Origin: Candidatus Kuenenia stuttgartensis | GTDB lineage: Bacteria; Pseudomonadota; Alphaproteobacteria; SMXS01 | Reading direction: 5' to 3' | DNA length: 64,000 nt | Assembly: GCA_943329845.2 (NCBI GenBank) | Contig: CALQFM020000013.1 | Coordinates: 1 to 64,000 of the forward strand | In this document: positions 24,440-38,590 of the stretch, one piece after another | How the letters are laid out: each line of letters starts with the position of its first letter | Position numbering within the stretch: the first letter of the stretch is position 1 | The notes under the pieces: model-generated | Told to the model about the DNA's origin: nothing | Database searches by the model: none | What the model saw: the letters and a program-made list of their open reading frames with translations, nothing else | Made by a program: the position numbers and the translations under genes

Positions 24440-25732
<1,293 letters not shown>

Positions 25733-25745
25733 GGAAGATCCGTTC

Positions 25746-26159
25746 ATGAAACTACGCGCCGAGAACGCCGAGGACATCGCCGTGCTCGGCGGCTACCTGC
25801 AGGATGCCGCGCTCAAGGTGTCCGACCTGGCGTGGCTGCCGGCGGCCAACCGCTTCGCCCTGGTCTGCAACCGCTTCATGTGGGAGCGGCCCGGGCCGCC
25901 CCATTACCGCACCCGCGCCGGCCTGCATTTCGAAACCGTCATCGCCGCCAAGGTGCGCGGCGTGCCACAGCAGTCGAAGGACCATGTGCTGGAGTTGCTG
26001 ACCGTCCATGCGGTCGAGCAGCAGGGCCGCGCCCTGATTACCCTCACCTTCGCCGGCGGCGCCGACATCCGCCTGGAAGCCGAACTGGTCGAGGCCGGCA
26101 TGGACGATCTTGGCGAGCCCTGGGAAACGCAGAACCGCCCGGTGCACGAAGGCGCGTGA
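25746..26159 (+). CDS. DUF2948 family protein
   Basis: MKLRAENAEDIAVLGGYLQDAALKVSDLAWLPAANRFALVCNRFMWER; usual neighbour of murA/hisD in Alphaproteobacteria. Confidence 0.88.
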   Translation: MKLRAENAEDIAVLGGYLQDAALKVSDLAWLPAANRFALVCNRFMWERPGPPHYRTRAGLHFETVIAAKVRGVPQQSKDHVLELLTVHAVEQQGRALITLTFAGGADIRLEAELVEAGMDDLGEPWETQNRPVHEGA

Positions 26160-27211
26160 TGCCGATGCTCACGGGCTACCTGCGGCGCCAGGCCGCCACC
26201 TGCTACGAGCTCAAATCCGCGCTGACCGCCTGCCTCCTGCTGCGGATCGCCAATGACTGCGACGCCCAGGGGCCGTGCCGGGACCTGTTCGGCCATCGTG
26301 AGAGCGCGGCGTTGCCCAACAGCATGCTCGGCCCGCGGATCGCCGGCGCGATGCACAGCCTCGTCCTTGCCGGCCTCGCGCCCGAACTCGCCACCTTCTA
26401 CCCCACTGCCGGCGGATCGTTCGTCGAAGCAGGCTTCTGGGAACAGGCACTGGCGGTGTTGATGTCGAATATGGACTTCGTGAACGCCTATATCGAAAAC
26501 CCACCCCAGACCAACGAGGTCGGCCGCGCCGGCACCCTGCTCGCCGGCTTTTTGCTGGTCGCGCGCGAAACCGGCCTTCCACTGCGGTGTCTCGAGGCGG
26601 GCGCAAGCGCCGGCCTCCTGCTTCACTGGGATCGTTACCGATACGACCTTGACGGTGCGCACTGGGGTGACTCGTCAAGCCCGGTGCTGATCCGGAACCG
26701 CTGGCGCGGCACGCCCGCCGGCCTGCCCGCCCGCGTCAGCGTCTCCGAGCGCCGCGGTTGCGACCTCAATCCGGTGGATCTGGGCGATCCCGAGGAGACC
26801 CGGCGCCTGAGGTCGTACATCTGGGGCGACCACCCTGGACGGCTGGCCCGGCTCGACGCGGCCATGGCCGTGGCGGCGCGCGATCCGGCGCCGGTAGACC
26901 GCCAGGATGCCGCCTCGTGGATCGAGGCCCAGCTTGCGGATCCCCGGCCCGGCGTAGCGACGGTATTCTATACATGCTTCGCCTCGATGTATTTTGGCCG
27001 GGCCAGTGTCGCCGCTATCCGGGACGCTTTCTCCCGCGCCGCCGCAATCGCCACGCCAGAAGCGCCACTGGCCTTGCTTCAGCTCGAACGGACCAGCAAG
27101 GGCGGAACGCCAAGGCTGCAGCTGTCCCAATGGCCCGGCAATACGCACCGCATTCTGGCCGGAACCGACCTGCTTGGGCGAAGTACGACATGGGCGAAAG
27201 CCCGGCGCTAG
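26159..27211 (+). CDS. DUF2332 family protein, copy 1
   Basis: MPMLTGYLRRQAATCYELKSALTACLLLRIAND...FYPTAGGSF...NPPQTNEVGRAGTL...LRCLEAGASAGLLLHWDRYRYDLDGAHWGDSSSPVLI; TGATG coupling to DUF2948. Confidence 0.85.
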   Translation: MPMLTGYLRRQAATCYELKSALTACLLLRIANDCDAQGPCRDLFGHRESAALPNSMLGPRIAGAMHSLVLAGLAPELATFYPTAGGSFVEAGFWEQALAVLMSNMDFVNAYIENPPQTNEVGRAGTLLAGFLLVARETGLPLRCLEAGASAGLLLHWDRYRYDLDGAHWGDSSSPVLIRNRWRGTPAGLPARVSVSERRGCDLNPVDLGDPEETRRLRSYIWGDHPGRLARLDAAMAVAARDPAPVDRQDAASWIEAQLADPRPGVATVFYTCFASMYFGRASVAAIRDAFSRAAAIATPEAPLALLQLERTSKGGTPRLQLSQWPGNTHRILAGTDLLGRSTTWAKARR

Positions 27212-27212
27212 A

Positions 27213-28373
27213 TCACCCGCTGCCGGGCACGGACGGCTCTGCTCCCACATAGCGCGCCCTGGGCCGGATCAACGTGCCCGTCTCGGTCTGCTCGATCGCG
27301 TGGGCGAGCCAGCCTGCCGTTCGGCCGAGCGCGAAGATGGCGAACGCCGCCTCCTGCGAAAGCCCGAGCGTTTGTGCCAGCGCCGCCAGCGCGCCGTCCA
27401 CATTGAGCAACATGCCGCCAGCCGCCTCCGCGGCTTCTATTGTCCGCAGCAATGCCCCGTAGGGTTCATGGGCGGCCCTCAGCGCATGGGCACGGATGTC
27501 GCCGTCCGGATAGAGCGCGTGGTGCAGTCCCCAGATCGGCTCGCCGCGGACCAGGCGCGCGGCGAAAAATGCCGCCGGATCAGGCGCCGCGAGCGCCTCG
27601 GCGAACATGGCGACGGTGCGCATGGTCATGCCGCCGTGCCGGGGCCCGGTCAGCGCGGCGAGTCCCGCCATCAGTGCCGCCGGCAGGCTCGCGCCGGTCG
27701 ATGCCACCACGCGCACCGCGAAGGTGGACGCGTTCAGTTCATGATCGGCCAGCAGCACGAGCGCGCGGCGGACCAGATCCGCCCCCTTCGGCTTCAGCCT
27801 CCAGGCGGCGGCGGCGGCCTCTTGAACCGGGCCGGTGACCTCGCGGCCCAGCACCGTGCCGGCCAGCCCCCGAAACAGCGCCGCCCCCTCCACGACGATG
27901 GCTTGCCGGCTGCGGCCGAACATGGGCTGCGCCTCATTCATCGCCTGCGCCAGATAGTTGAACGAAGCGCCGATCCCGCTGCCGCTGGCGATCGGGGCCC
28001 GGGCCGCCGCCTGCGGCCAGGACGCAACGTCGCACAGCAGCGCCGCCGTTTCCTCGAGCGTGGCGTGTTCCGACCACGCGACGGCATCATGTCCCCGGTA
28101 GATCAGCCGTCCGCGCACCACCGTGGAAATCCGCGTCTCAAGAACTGGATCGCCCCAGTTGATCGCTTTGGCGGCGACCACCGGGCGGCTGCGCCCGGCC
28201 TTCTTGCGCGCGGCCAACGCATCCACCTCGGCCTCGCGGTAGAGGCTGCGGCGGGAATCCGCGCCATCTGCCGCCGCTTCCAGCAGGCCACGGCTGACAT
28301 AGGCGTAGAGCGTCTGCGGGCGGATCCCGAGACGTTGGCAAACCTCGTCGGCGGCGATCATTTTCACTGACAT
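27213..28373 (-). CDS. Citrate synthase family protein with N-terminal HTH (excisionase/MerR-like) domain
   Basis: N-terminus MSVKMIAADEVCQRLGIRPQTLYAYVSRGLLEA...SRRSLYREAEVDAL; C-terminus with CS-like GPRHGGMTMR, GLHHALYPDGDIRA, NVDGALAAL. Confidence 0.85.
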   Translation of the reverse strand: MSVKMIAADEVCQRLGIRPQTLYAYVSRGLLEAAADGADSRRSLYREAEVDALAARKKAGRSRPVVAAKAINWGDPVLETRISTVVRGRLIYRGHDAVAWSEHATLEETAALLCDVASWPQAAARAPIASGSGIGASFNYLAQAMNEAQPMFGRSRQAIVVEGAALFRGLAGTVLGREVTGPVQEAAAAAWRLKPKGADLVRRALVLLADHELNASTFAVRVVASTGASLPAALMAGLAALTGPRHGGMTMRTVAMFAEALAAPDPAAFFAARLVRGEPIWGLHHALYPDGDIRAHALRAAHEPYGALLRTIEAAEAAGGMLLNVDGALAALAQTLGLSQEAAFAIFALGRTAGWLAHAIEQTETGTLIRPRARYVGAEPSVPGSG

Positions 28374-28400
28374 ATATTGATTATATTGATCAATATTGAC
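28374..28400. promoter_or_regulatory. AT-rich palindromic divergent promoter/operator
   Basis: tatattgat-tatattgat tandem and perfect palindrome atattga|tcaatat (28383-28396) between the divergent CS-HTH (-) and DUF2332 copy 2 (+) starts. Confidence 0.5.
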
Positions 28401-28455
28401 GAACGCAACGACGTGGCGCCAGATGGTGGCCATCAACAGGCTCGGAAGCAGTCCC

Positions 28456-29550
28456 ATGAATACACCCATGATCGACCCCGGTCCCGACGGCCGGTCCGAC
28501 AGCGCCCTCGTCGCCGCCTTTGCTTTCCAGGCAAAGGCCTGCGAGCTGATTGGCTCGCCGCTCACCGCCCTGCTGCTGCGCGGCATGGTCGCCGACTACA
28601 AGGCGGGCGGCGTCACCCACACCATGCTCTCCGGCTGGGAAACCCGTGCACCCAAGGATGCTGTCCTCAGCCTGCGCATGGTCGGCGGCCTGCATTACCT
28701 GGTACTGACCGGCCGCGCCTCGGCGCTCGCCGCATTCTATCCCAGTGCCGGCGGCGCGTTCCGCGAGGACGGACTATGGGACGCCGCCGAGCCCGTCCTG
28801 CGCGCCGAGGGGCCGTTCTTCGAGCACTTCCTGCGCAACACGCCGCAGACTAACGAGGTGCGCCGCACCGGCGTGCTGATCGGCGGTTTCCTCACCGTCG
28901 CGAAGCAGACCGGCCTGCCGTTGCGCTGCCTGGAAGTCGGCGCCAGCGCTGGCCTCAACCTAAACTGGGACCGGTTTCGCTATGACTTCGGCAACGGCGC
29001 GACCTGGGGCGATCCGGCAAGCCCGGTACTGATTAACACCAGCTGGCGCGGCGATGCGCCCCACGCTGACGTGGCCGCCACCGTCGCCGAGCGCGCCGGC
29101 TGCGACATCAGCCCCATCGACCTGTCGCGGCCCGAGGCGGCGCTGCGCCTGAAATCCTATGTCTGGCCCGACCAGCTCGAACGCTTCCACATGCTGGAAG
29201 GCGCGCTGGCCGTGGCCGCCCTGCATCCGCCGTCGCTGGAAACCGCCGATGCCGGCAAATGGGTCGCGCTGCAACTGGCGGAGCCGCGCCCCGGCGTGGC
29301 GACGGTGGTCTATCATTCTATCGCCGCCCAGTATTTCAGCGCCGAGACCAAGGCTGCCATGAACGCCGCCTTGACCCGCGCCGGCGAACGCGCGACACCC
29401 GATGCGCCGGTCGCCTGGCTGCGCATGGAGGCGCCGGATCTTTCCGCCTGGCCCGAGGTGATCGTGACCCTCTGGCCCGGTGGCGAGGAACGGCTGCTCG
29501 GCACAGCCCATCCTCACGGCACATTCGTTGAGTGGAAGGAGACCCCATGA
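28456..29550 (+). CDS. DUF2332 family protein, copy 2
   Basis: Paralog of 26159-27211: FYPSAGGAF, NTPQTNEVRRTGVLIGGFL, LRCLEVGASAGLNLNWDRFRYDFGNGATWGDPASPVLI. Confidence 0.88.
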   Translation: MNTPMIDPGPDGRSDSALVAAFAFQAKACELIGSPLTALLLRGMVADYKAGGVTHTMLSGWETRAPKDAVLSLRMVGGLHYLVLTGRASALAAFYPSAGGAFREDGLWDAAEPVLRAEGPFFEHFLRNTPQTNEVRRTGVLIGGFLTVAKQTGLPLRCLEVGASAGLNLNWDRFRYDFGNGATWGDPASPVLINTSWRGDAPHADVAATVAERAGCDISPIDLSRPEAALRLKSYVWPDQLERFHMLEGALAVAALHPPSLETADAGKWVALQLAEPRPGVATVVYHSIAAQYFSAETKAAMNAALTRAGERATPDAPVAWLRMEAPDLSAWPEVIVTLWPGGEERLLGTAHPHGTFVEWKETP

Positions 29551-29843
29551 TCCTCGAAGCCGCCCAACTCACCATCAAGCCCGGCCGCGAAGCCGCGTTC
29601 GAAGCGGCCATGCGCCAGGCCCGGCCGTTGATCGAAGCCTCGCCCGGCTTCGGCGGCATCGAGGTCCGGCGCTGCATCGAACGCCCGAACGCCTACCTGC
29701 TGCTGGTCCGGTGGGAGACGCTGGAGGACCACACGGTCGGCTTTCGCGGCTCCGACCGGTACCAGCAGTGGCGGGCGTTGCTCCACGATTTCTACGATCC
29801 GCTCCCCACCGTCGAGCATTTCGCGCCGTCGTTCGTACGGTAG
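29547..29843 (+). CDS. Antibiotic biosynthesis monooxygenase (ABM)-like dimeric alpha/beta-barrel protein
   Basis: MILEAAQLTIKPGREAAFEAAMRQARPLIEASPGFGGIEVRRCIERPNAYLLLVRWETLEDHTVGFRGSDRYQQWRALLHDFYDP; ATGA overlap with DUF2332 copy 2. Confidence 0.85.
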   Translation: MILEAAQLTIKPGREAAFEAAMRQARPLIEASPGFGGIEVRRCIERPNAYLLLVRWETLEDHTVGFRGSDRYQQWRALLHDFYDPLPTVEHFAPSFVR

Positions 29844-33722: not shown

Positions 33723-34418
33723 TCACGCGGTCTTGACGGTCAATTCATTTCCCCGCCCAAGCTCGAACGCCAGCGGCAGCGAGAGATAACCGTTCCGGGG
33801 ATCGCGCACATACTCGATATACCCGCCCGCATCGGTGAGCGCATTCTCGCCGACAATGAGTGCGCCGGGTTTCAGGTGAGGCTCCAGCAACTTGAGAATG
33901 GGCAGATAGAGGGTGAACGCGCCGTCGAGCAGTACCATGTCGATGTCGCCGTCCAACCCGGTTTTGAGAGTGTCCCGGGCATCTCCAACCCGGATCTCGA
34001 CGAGGTCGGCCAGCCCTGCAGCCGCGACGTTCGACCGCGCCCTCTCCGCCTTGCTGGCCTCGAGATCGGTTCCGATCAGCCGTCCGCCGCCCATGTCGCG
34101 CAACGCCGCCGCCATATAGATGGCGGAAATTCCCATGGAGGATCCGAACTCGACGATGCGCCTGGCCTTGCAGCTGCGGGCGCACATGTAGAGAAACCGC
34201 CCGAATTCCGGAGAAACCGACAGGAAATTCCCGGCGAAGCCGCGATATAGCCCTATCAGATCCCTGTTCTCGGCTTCCACGACCTGTCGCAGCGCCTGTT
34301 CCATATCGGTCGCCCCCTGCTCCGCGAAGGTTTCCCCCAAGGACGCATCGGCTGCTTCCGCTTCCAGGTGGAGCCGGGCAAGCACGTCCGCGACCCGCCC
34401 GCTGCTGAGTGAATCCAT
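33723..34418 (-). CDS. Class I SAM-dependent O-methyltransferase
   Basis: RRIVEFGSSMGISAIYMAAAL (motif I), RLIGTDLEASK, DIDMVLLDGAFTLYLPILKLLEPHLKPGALIVGEN. Confidence 0.85.
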   Translation of the reverse strand: MDSLSSGRVADVLARLHLEAEAADASLGETFAEQGATDMEQALRQVVEAENRDLIGLYRGFAGNFLSVSPEFGRFLYMCARSCKARRIVEFGSSMGISAIYMAAALRDMGGGRLIGTDLEASKAERARSNVAAAGLADLVEIRVGDARDTLKTGLDGDIDMVLLDGAFTLYLPILKLLEPHLKPGALIVGENALTDAGGYIEYVRDPRNGYLSLPLAFELGRGNELTVKTA

Positions 34419-36419: not shown

Positions 36420-38590
36420 TCATTCTGCCGCCCAGGTCGCCTCCGCCCGCGTGATGTTGACGGGAATGGCGCTCATCCGCGGCATGCCGGTGCGCGCGTC
36501 GAAATCCCGCGTCACGTCGGTCAGACGCCCGGTGTTCGAGCCGATGAAGAACAGCTGGTTGTCGAACTGGGGCGCGTCGCCGAACGAATGCGCCATGGAG
36601 ATCACGCCCGGCCGCACGTCCGCCGCCTCCTCGGCAACGCCGAGGATCGAGCCATGATCCGACGCGATGCGGATGACGTCGCCGGCGCGCAACCCCAGCG
36701 CCGCCAGGTCGCCCGGGTTCATGAACGCCGGGTTGTAGTGGTGGTTGCGGGTCAGCGCCGGCAGGTCCCGTCCCGACGAATTGTAGACGTCGTTGAGGCG
36801 CCGGCTGACAAGCTGGTAGCCGAAATCGGCCACCAGCGTGTGACCCGCGTCGTTCGTCTCAGGCTCGGCGAGCACGTCGGCCAGCTCCTGCATCATCTCC
36901 GGATGGCCGATATCCAGCTTCTCCTCCCAGTCCTCGTCCTTGGGCAGCACCATCATGTCCGGATCATCGAAGATGTGGCCGTGCGGATACTTCTTCACCT
37001 CGGACAGCGGGATGCGTGAGCCGCGGCAGATCATCTCGAACAGGTCGTCGGTGGTCGGCTTGTTCACCATGTCCACGTCCTGGCCGTTGATGCGCAGCTG
37101 CAGCCCAAGCCGCTGGCCGATGCCGTAGAAGACCTCCCATTCCTCCAGCACGTCCGCGCCCGCCGGCGGCTCGACCAGCTTGGGCTGATACTGGGCGTAG
37201 GGGTCCGGATAGCCGGTCGCCGAGCCGTAGAACCAGGCGTTCTCGTTGGAGATGGTGATAGCCGGCGCCTCGAGCCCCAGCGTCGCCGGCAGCACGTAAT
37301 GCGCCACCTTGGCGGTCGCCGACATCTTGATGTCGATGGTGGCCAGCAGCTCCAGCTTCTTCATCGCCTCGTAGGTGCGCATCTGGTCGGGCCATGCCGC
37401 CATCGGGTTGCCGCCGACGCACATCAGCGCCCGCACCTGGCCCTCGCCGTCCAGCAGGATCTCCTCGGCCAGCGCGGCGGGTGTCAGGCCGCTGGCGTTC
37501 TCGCCAAGCCCGCGCACGCGCAGCTGCTCGCCATAGCCCCACGGCTTCGGCTTCTTCTCGGCCTGCGCCTTGCCATGGCGTTCCGGGATCAGCACGAAGG
37601 GATTGGGCATCTTCTCGCCTTCACGCAGCCAGCGGCCGGCGATGGTGTTGATGGCCAGCACCAGATATTCCGTGAGCGTACCGCGCGGCGCCATGTTGGG
37701 ACCGGTGCCGGCGGTGATCATGCCGCGCCGAGCCGAGCCGAAGATGCGGGCCGCCTCGACGATCTGTTCGGCTGGGACGCCGGCGCGCCGCGCCACATAG
37801 TCAGGCGTGAACGGCGCGACGGCTGCCCTGAACGCCTCGAAGCCGTCGACTTCGGCGGCGAGGAACGCCTCGTCGATCATGCCTTCCTCGATCATCACAT
37901 GGGCGATGCCCGCGAGGATGGCCGGGTCCTCGCCGGGCTTGCACTGCAGGTGCAGGTGCGCCTTCTCAGCCGTCTCGGTCAGGCGCGGGTCGATCACCAC
38001 CAGCTTCTGGCCGTTCTTCAGCGCGTCGTGCAGGCGCTTGGCAGGGTTGTACTGGGGAATGCCGCCCATTTGGAAACCACTGGATTGGCGCCGACCAGGA
38101 TCCAGGCGTCGGACTCCGCATAGGGCTGCGGCCCCGCGTGCCAGCGGCCATGCAGCGCCATCGACATCGGCTTGCCCGGCTGGTCGATGGTGGCCGAGGT
38201 GAAGCGCATGGGCGATCCGATCGCGTCCATCAGCGCCATCGCCATGGCCCGGCCCGCCGGATAGGGGAAGGTATATGTGGCGGCATAGAGCGCCACCGAA
38301 CGCGGACCGTGCTCGGCGATCAGCCGGCCGATGGTGGCGGCGATCTCATCGAGCGCCGCCTCGGACGCGATCCGCTCGTGGCCGTTGCCGACGCGGCGCT
38401 GGGCATGCAGCAGCCGCTCCGGGTTGTCGTGCTGGGCGGGCAACTGGCGGCCCTTGACGCAGGTATAGCCGAAATACATCGGGTTATCCTTGTCGCCCAC
38501 CACCTTGACGGCCTTGCCGTCCTCGATCGTCACCTTGATGCCGCAGAAGGAATGGCAGAAGCGGCAGATCGCCGTCTTGATCTCGGCCAT
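36420..38590 (-). pseudogene. Molybdopterin oxidoreductase (formate dehydrogenase alpha-like), interrupted by a frameshift near 38067-38072
   Basis: ORF 38018-38635 (MAEIKTAICRFCHSFCGIKVTIEDGKAVKVVGDKDNP...WILVGANPVVSK|WAAF) and ORF 36420-38069 (MGGIPQYNPAKRLHDALKNGQKLVVIDPRLTETA...) are consecutive pieces of one protein in different frames; one extra A in the coding-strand AAA run would join them. Confidence 0.85.

Follow-up and report, generated by a model that had tools for sequence, protein, structure and literature searches.

A citrate-synthase-fold protein with an N-terminal helix-turn-helix as a probable local regulator beside DUF2332 in an alphaproteobacterial genome

Enzyme folds that have turned into DNA-binding sensors are known, as in MocR, BirA and PutA. 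Here we analyze a 64,000-nt stretch of alphaproteobacterial DNA (contig CALQFM020000013.1, positions 1 to 64,000; hereafter the window), in which a gene coding for a citrate synthase (CS)-like protein with an N-terminal helix-turn-helix (HTH), designated HTH-CS, is located between two genes of the DUF2332 family. We consider it probable that HTH-CS is an enzyme-derived one-component regulator, which represses its own gene and controls the divergent gene, in the window the second DUF2332 copy.

In Caulobacter crescentus, citB and citC (CCNA_03757/03758) are adjacent paralogues, and CitB, not CitC, could replace GltA of E. coli (PMC7083601). Xanthomonas citri PrpR, which was aligned with the PrpR of Salmonella, represses prpB-prpC in Xanthomonadales; it binds GTTGCAA-N2-TTGCAAC, unlike the HTH-CS operator described below (PMC12153269), and was rejected as a possible HTH-CS because of this different motif. 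In the papers searched, we found no report of an HTH-citrate synthase regulator or of its operator; one-component regulators derived from enzymes are a known kind, and the citrate-synthase variant appears to be undescribed.

A citrate-synthase fold behind an HTH, and its proposed operator

HTH-CS matches PF00285 at 1.2e-53 and, at its N-terminus, HTH_17 at 3e-7, the latter above the Pfam cut-off, with the MerR models of Pfam remaining below theirs (21.6 vs 28.2 bits and 19.5 vs 21.6 bits) and the score falling far under the cut-off of every NCBIfam CS model. Its AlphaFold2 model (pLDDT 92) contains the HTH and a flexible linker at residues 63-74, and a Foldseek search with this model retrieved M. 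tuberculosis CitA (8s9d) and Salmonella PrpC (3o8j) at E 2.7e-15. The key residues of the window's HTH-CS are His211/His246/His285/Arg294/Asp326/Arg351/Arg372. In an alignment of 61 HTH-CS homologues, the equivalents of His274, Arg329, Asp375, Arg401 and Arg421 are invariant (61/61), and those of His320 and His238 are present in 60 and 59 homologues, respectively (the residue numbers in this sentence are those of pig CS). Alignment and model thus agree in indicating that HTH-CS is a citrate-synthase fold, the full catalytic and oxaloacetate-binding set of which is conserved in its family. Both features read from the sequence by the initial annotation are therefore borne out: the CS-like His/His/Asp motifs are found, with the catalytic residues, whose loss it had named as fatal to its reading, kept in the alignment, and the excisionase/MerR-like HTH is real by the HTH_17 match and the model.

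Alignment of upstream regions revealed GTCAATMTTGATCAATATAATCAATAT next to the gene start at almost all HTH-CS loci. The site, TCAATMTTGAT-N7-ATCAA directly upstream of HTH-CS, is composed of the palindrome ATMTTGAT-N7-ATCAATAT plus an additional left half-site, and yields a palindromic logo. With up to three mismatches allowed and the reversed motif as a control, the operator was present at 23/24 alphaproteobacterial HTH-CS loci (reversed control 0) and at 77 of the 80 named HTH-CS loci of Alpha-, Beta- and Gammaproteobacteria, which include Cupriavidus, Pandoraea, Duganella and Pseudoxanthomonas (reversed control 0/80); HTH-CS as a whole occupies at least nearly 600 GTDB loci. The genome containing the window (3.68 Mb) harbors a single perfect match, at 28377-28399, where 0.0005 would be expected by chance, and one further match with 2 mismatches elsewhere. 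A search of 385 alphaproteobacterial genomes gave 30 perfect matches, and none to the reversed motif; 26 lie beside an HTH-CS gene, and neither HTH-CS nor a CS gene is near the remaining four.

The operator spans the putative HTH-CS promoter (spacer and -10 box TATAAT), which was read by eye and would place the start at or beside the ATG, so that the transcript would be leaderless. The same geometry (-35/17 bp/-10) was seen by eye in three relatives; an automatic search for promoters between the two genes, applying a stricter -35 rule, reported none. The region 28374-28456, earlier proposed as a gel-shift target, does hold a strictly conserved, HTH-CS-specific operator, as judged from the sequence. 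Since the site recurs at 77/80 HTH-CS genes, has a single perfect match in the genome and adjoins HTH-CS in 26 of 30 perfect occurrences, HTH-CS is most likely a local autoregulator of the divergent promoter.

Genes facing HTH-CS and the proposed circuit

The usual partner of HTH-CS is not DUF2332 but a second, HTH-less CS gene, which is the divergent gene in 54/80 named loci, including Caulobacter segnis and C. radicis, where the operator is also present; the C. radicis partner matches NCBIfam NF009005. In Luteimonas and Pseudoxanthomonas (L222, L240), HTH-CS is divergent from prpB-prpC (methylisocitrate lyase, then 2-methylcitrate synthase), both called by NCBIfam equivalogs above cut-off. 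HTH-CS takes the place there at which one would look for a prp regulator, and may control the methylcitrate cycle. At several other loci the divergent gene belongs to CoA-transferase family III (two members were tested with Pfam, and the remainder judged by similar N-termini), and in Caballeronia it is an MFS transporter, with a similar gene in a Burkholderia sp. The CS, prpBC and CoA-transferase partners share short-chain acyl-CoA/tricarboxylate chemistry, which is why we take the CS domain to be the likely sensor of such a compound. Several HTH-CS/CS pairs (L125, L127, L130, L212 from Reyranella, and L245) lie beside pyrB/pyrC-like genes, and in L245 an isochorismatase-like open reading frame (ORF), as judged by N-terminal sequence only, adjoins HTH-CS.

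In five relatives from the window's genus with an intact locus, dcd-murA-DUF2948 is followed by HTH-CS divergent from DUF2332-ABM, and no CS partner beside HTH-CS was found in this genus. In three of these species a cupin gene (L080:9554-10042, L076:5075-5623, L078:8373-8858) separates the operator from DUF2332; it shares 65% identity with a cupin gene in the vicinity of a Caulobacterales HTH-CS, and the window's species lacks it at this position. Two Caulobacterales loci, L181 (which also lacks His320) and L216, carry a cupin of the same family at a distance of 1.4-3.5 kb, and their divergent gene is cation-efflux-like instead of CS. Of two sister genera without HTH-CS, g3 has DUF2332 directly after murA-DUF2948, and g2 has it one gene further on, followed by ABM. 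Because of this arrangement, HTH-CS seems to have been inserted ahead of an older DUF2332(-ABM) unit.

Beyond this genus, DUF2332 adjoins HTH-CS or an HTH-CS/CS pair in two other lineages. In the family of genome G329, it is located right behind the CS partner in 17 genomes, with the genes overlapping in some; the full order, with HTH-CS divergent from CS-DUF2332, was seen wherever the sequence fetched sufficed, and a contig break in G329 was bridged by 141 bp of identical overlapping sequence. The link of DUF2332 to CS is missing from seven genomes that belong to a different genus of the family. In L245 (Alphaproteobacteria bacterium 65-37, a metagenome-assembled genome), a distant DUF2332 (PF10094 at 8.7e-65) overlaps the end of CS. 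The DUF2332 proteins of the linked lineages form separate clades, as seen in the tree for two of the three. Since the adjacency recurs in three lineages, the connection appears to have arisen at least three times, and would presumably seldom do so by chance. The link between DUF2332 and HTH-CS suspected at the outset thus holds as adjacency in three lineages, but not as general co-occurrence, which outside the genus was not significant (Fisher p = 0.09, n=9 genomes); DUF2332 loci fetched elsewhere had varied neighbors.

We propose that the N-terminal HTH binds ATMTTGAT-N7-ATCAATAT in its own promoter, and that the CS-fold domain most likely senses short-chain acyl-CoA, oxaloacetate or (methyl)citrate. 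As the site fills the spacer and the -10 box of an apparently leaderless gene, we infer that HTH-CS probably represses its own gene and controls the divergent one. The ancestral divergent gene would have been another CS; with this partner gone from the window's genus and the divergent transcript now being (cupin-)DUF2332-ABM, DUF2332 copy 2 would have come under HTH-CS control, which would tie it to small-acid/CoA metabolism. More tentatively, HTH-CS may represent an undescribed family of sensing regulators, derived from a catalytically complete CS and equipped with a private operator, that switches CS, prpBC and CoA-transferase genes, with DUF2332 as a new enzyme of the pathway.

Several observations weigh against this proposal. 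All catalytic residues are retained, and HTH-CS may therefore be an active enzyme besides, or instead of, a sensor. That it is chiefly a citrate or acyl-citrate synthase which also autoregulates, like PutA or BirA, would agree with the conservation of the full set in 61 homologues, as pure sensors often lose such residues, and with its pairing with a CS paralogue, which makes mixed dimers possible. We nevertheless regard this as unlikely: the small domain is shorter in the alignment than that of GltA, and, if CitC is the HTH-bearing member of the C. crescentus pair, the complementation of E. coli delta-gltA by CitB and not by CitC (PMC7083601) would make it an inefficient citrate synthase. Further, the operator was not found at three Caulobacterales HTH-CS genes (L181, L216, L231), and could belong to a regulator other than HTH-CS. 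The overlap between the site and a -10-like TATAAT would suit a target of some unrelated global regulator, or a promoter element that is conserved; such a site, however, would recur within a genome, whereas each genome has essentially a single one, beside HTH-CS, and the four remaining perfect matches in 385 genomes lie away from HTH-CS and CS, making this explanation very unlikely. Finally, the majority of DUF2332 genes show no linkage to HTH-CS, and most HTH-CS genes none to DUF2332. HTH-CS may have landed by coincidence between DUF2948 and the older DUF2332-ABM pair and regulate only itself, as the gene order in the sister genera and the weak co-occurrence would allow; yet in L245 and in 17 genomes from a different family, DUF2332 proteins of separate clades are encoded immediately after the CS partner, and we consider coincidence somewhat unlikely. 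Local regulation by HTH-CS, extending to DUF2332 copy 2, is the reading that we regard as probable.

The DUF2332 genes and the surrounding locus

The four ORFs initially reported here (Table 1) were correct in coordinates, overlaps and family names by ORF calls and Pfam. Both DUF2332 copies match the PF10094 profile over its full length (6e-93 and 1.5e-106) and are 45% identical across 338 residues; the ABM-like ORF matches PF03992 at 8e-14 and DUF2948 matches PF11164 at 1e-40. Copy 1 begins within a TGATG overlap with the end of DUF2948 and is separated from HTH-CS by 1 bp; from the HTH-CS ATG at 28373, 82 bp lead to copy 2, which overlaps the ABM-like ORF by ATGA. The genome (G000) has no DUF2332 genes other than these two, and its only further citrate synthase is a gltA.

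Table 1. Coordinates of the locus within the window
Feature	Position	Strand	Remarks
DUF2948	25746-26159	+	Downstream of dcd-murA; conserved flank outside the unit (Pfam, relatives)
DUF2332 copy 1	26159-27211	+	Species-specific divergent paralogue, HPHG and YHS motifs lost; outside the conserved unit
HTH-CS	27213-28373	-	HTH_17/MerR-like at residues ~9-57, linker 63-74, citrate-synthase-fold domain (Pfam, 61-homologue alignment, AlphaFold2, Foldseek)
Operator GTCAATATTGATCAATATAATCAATAT	28374-28400	-	Core TCAATATTGAT-N7-ATCAA at 28377-28399; overlaps HTH-CS promoter
Putative HTH-CS promoter	28380-28408	-	-35 TTGCGT 28403-28408, 17-bp spacer, -10 TATAAT 28380-28385 (by eye)
DUF2332 copy 2	28456-29550	+	Divergent from HTH-CS, proposed target; equivalent position in five congeneric species
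ABM-like protein	29547-29843	+	PF03992; sister genus g2 likewise has DUF2332-ABM

The tight packing, with its 1-bp gap, had led the initial annotation to join both DUF2332 paralogues and HTH-CS into one conserved cassette. This is extremely unlikely: copy 1 was found only in the window's species and in none of the five relatives whose locus is intact, its branch is long and the outermost one in the DUF2332 clade of the family (clade support 97/88, weak inside), and the alignment shows it to be devoid of the YHS and HPHG motifs. By these comparisons, copy 1 is an accessory divergent paralogue and not part of the conserved unit.

The near-invariant motifs of DUF2332 in the alignment are T-N-E-x-x-R, E-x-G-x-S-A-G-L, W-x-D and H-G. 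In its AlphaFold2 model (pLDDT 69), built on an alignment of four sequences because a search of viral contigs yielded no relatives, E-x-G-x-S-x-G follows a predicted strand (156-161) and resembles methyltransferase motif I, as the initial annotation had noted; DUF2332 may be a methyltransferase. hhalign paired the motif, though not significantly (E 0.0098, probability 4%), with motif I of the methyltransferase whose gene lies at 33723-34418 in the window, and gave no match to LCM methyltransferases. Foldseek comparison of this mediocre model with PDB and BFVD returned nothing significant, weak methyltransferase matches at E >= 0.37 being among the first ranks; searches of PDB with the single sequence and with a profile found nothing, and a literature search found no paper on DUF2332. 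Methylation of a carboxyl group on some stray tricarboxylate, by analogy with trans-aconitate methyltransferase, would fit the neighbors of DUF2332, a guess that we hold to be quite improbable.

Elsewhere in the window, the order murA-DUF2948 (24440-26159) is kept throughout the family and may represent a functional pair. A molybdopterin-oxidoreductase-like gene at 36420-38590 (minus strand) consists of two overlapping ORFs (38018-38590 and 36420-38069), and is a single 723-aa ORF in G007 and G005 (L077:1059-3230, L080:15287-17458); a frameshift or an assembly error in the window genome is possible.

Comparison with known systems

HTH-CS genes pass as surplus citrate synthases, possibly including Caulobacter citC. 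With the operator sequence, the HTH-CS regulon can be sought in genomes, and the DUF2332 family, which has no known function, gains its first recurring functional neighbors. With citrate synthases and 2-methylcitrate synthases (PF00285; 8s9d, 3o8j), HTH-CS shares the fold over nearly the full length, the catalytic His/His/Asp and the oxaloacetate arginines; it differs from these enzymes in the extra N-terminal HTH, the shortened small domain, the operator of its own and the sub-cut-off NCBIfam CS scores. The citB/citC genes of C. crescentus lie next to each other like the CS pairs of C. segnis and C. radicis, each of which includes an HTH-CS with the operator. The passages on citC describe it solely as a citrate synthase paralogue inactive in E. 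coli, and mention neither an HTH nor an operator (PMC7083601). Since HTH-CS and CS are divergent genes in the two other species and the operator is present there, CitC is, by analogy, probably the HTH-CS of C. crescentus.

With the MerR family, HTH-CS shares the MerR/excisionase-like HTH and a site within the promoter spacer, but the MerR models score below cut-off, the spacer is 17 bp rather than 19-20 bp, and there is no short effector domain. The MocR family, with its GntR-type HTH and aminotransferase fold, differs from HTH-CS in both HTH and enzyme fold, and we claim no homology; the principle is the same, namely an enzyme-fold sensor placed behind a DNA-binding domain and combined with a local operator (PMC5320631).

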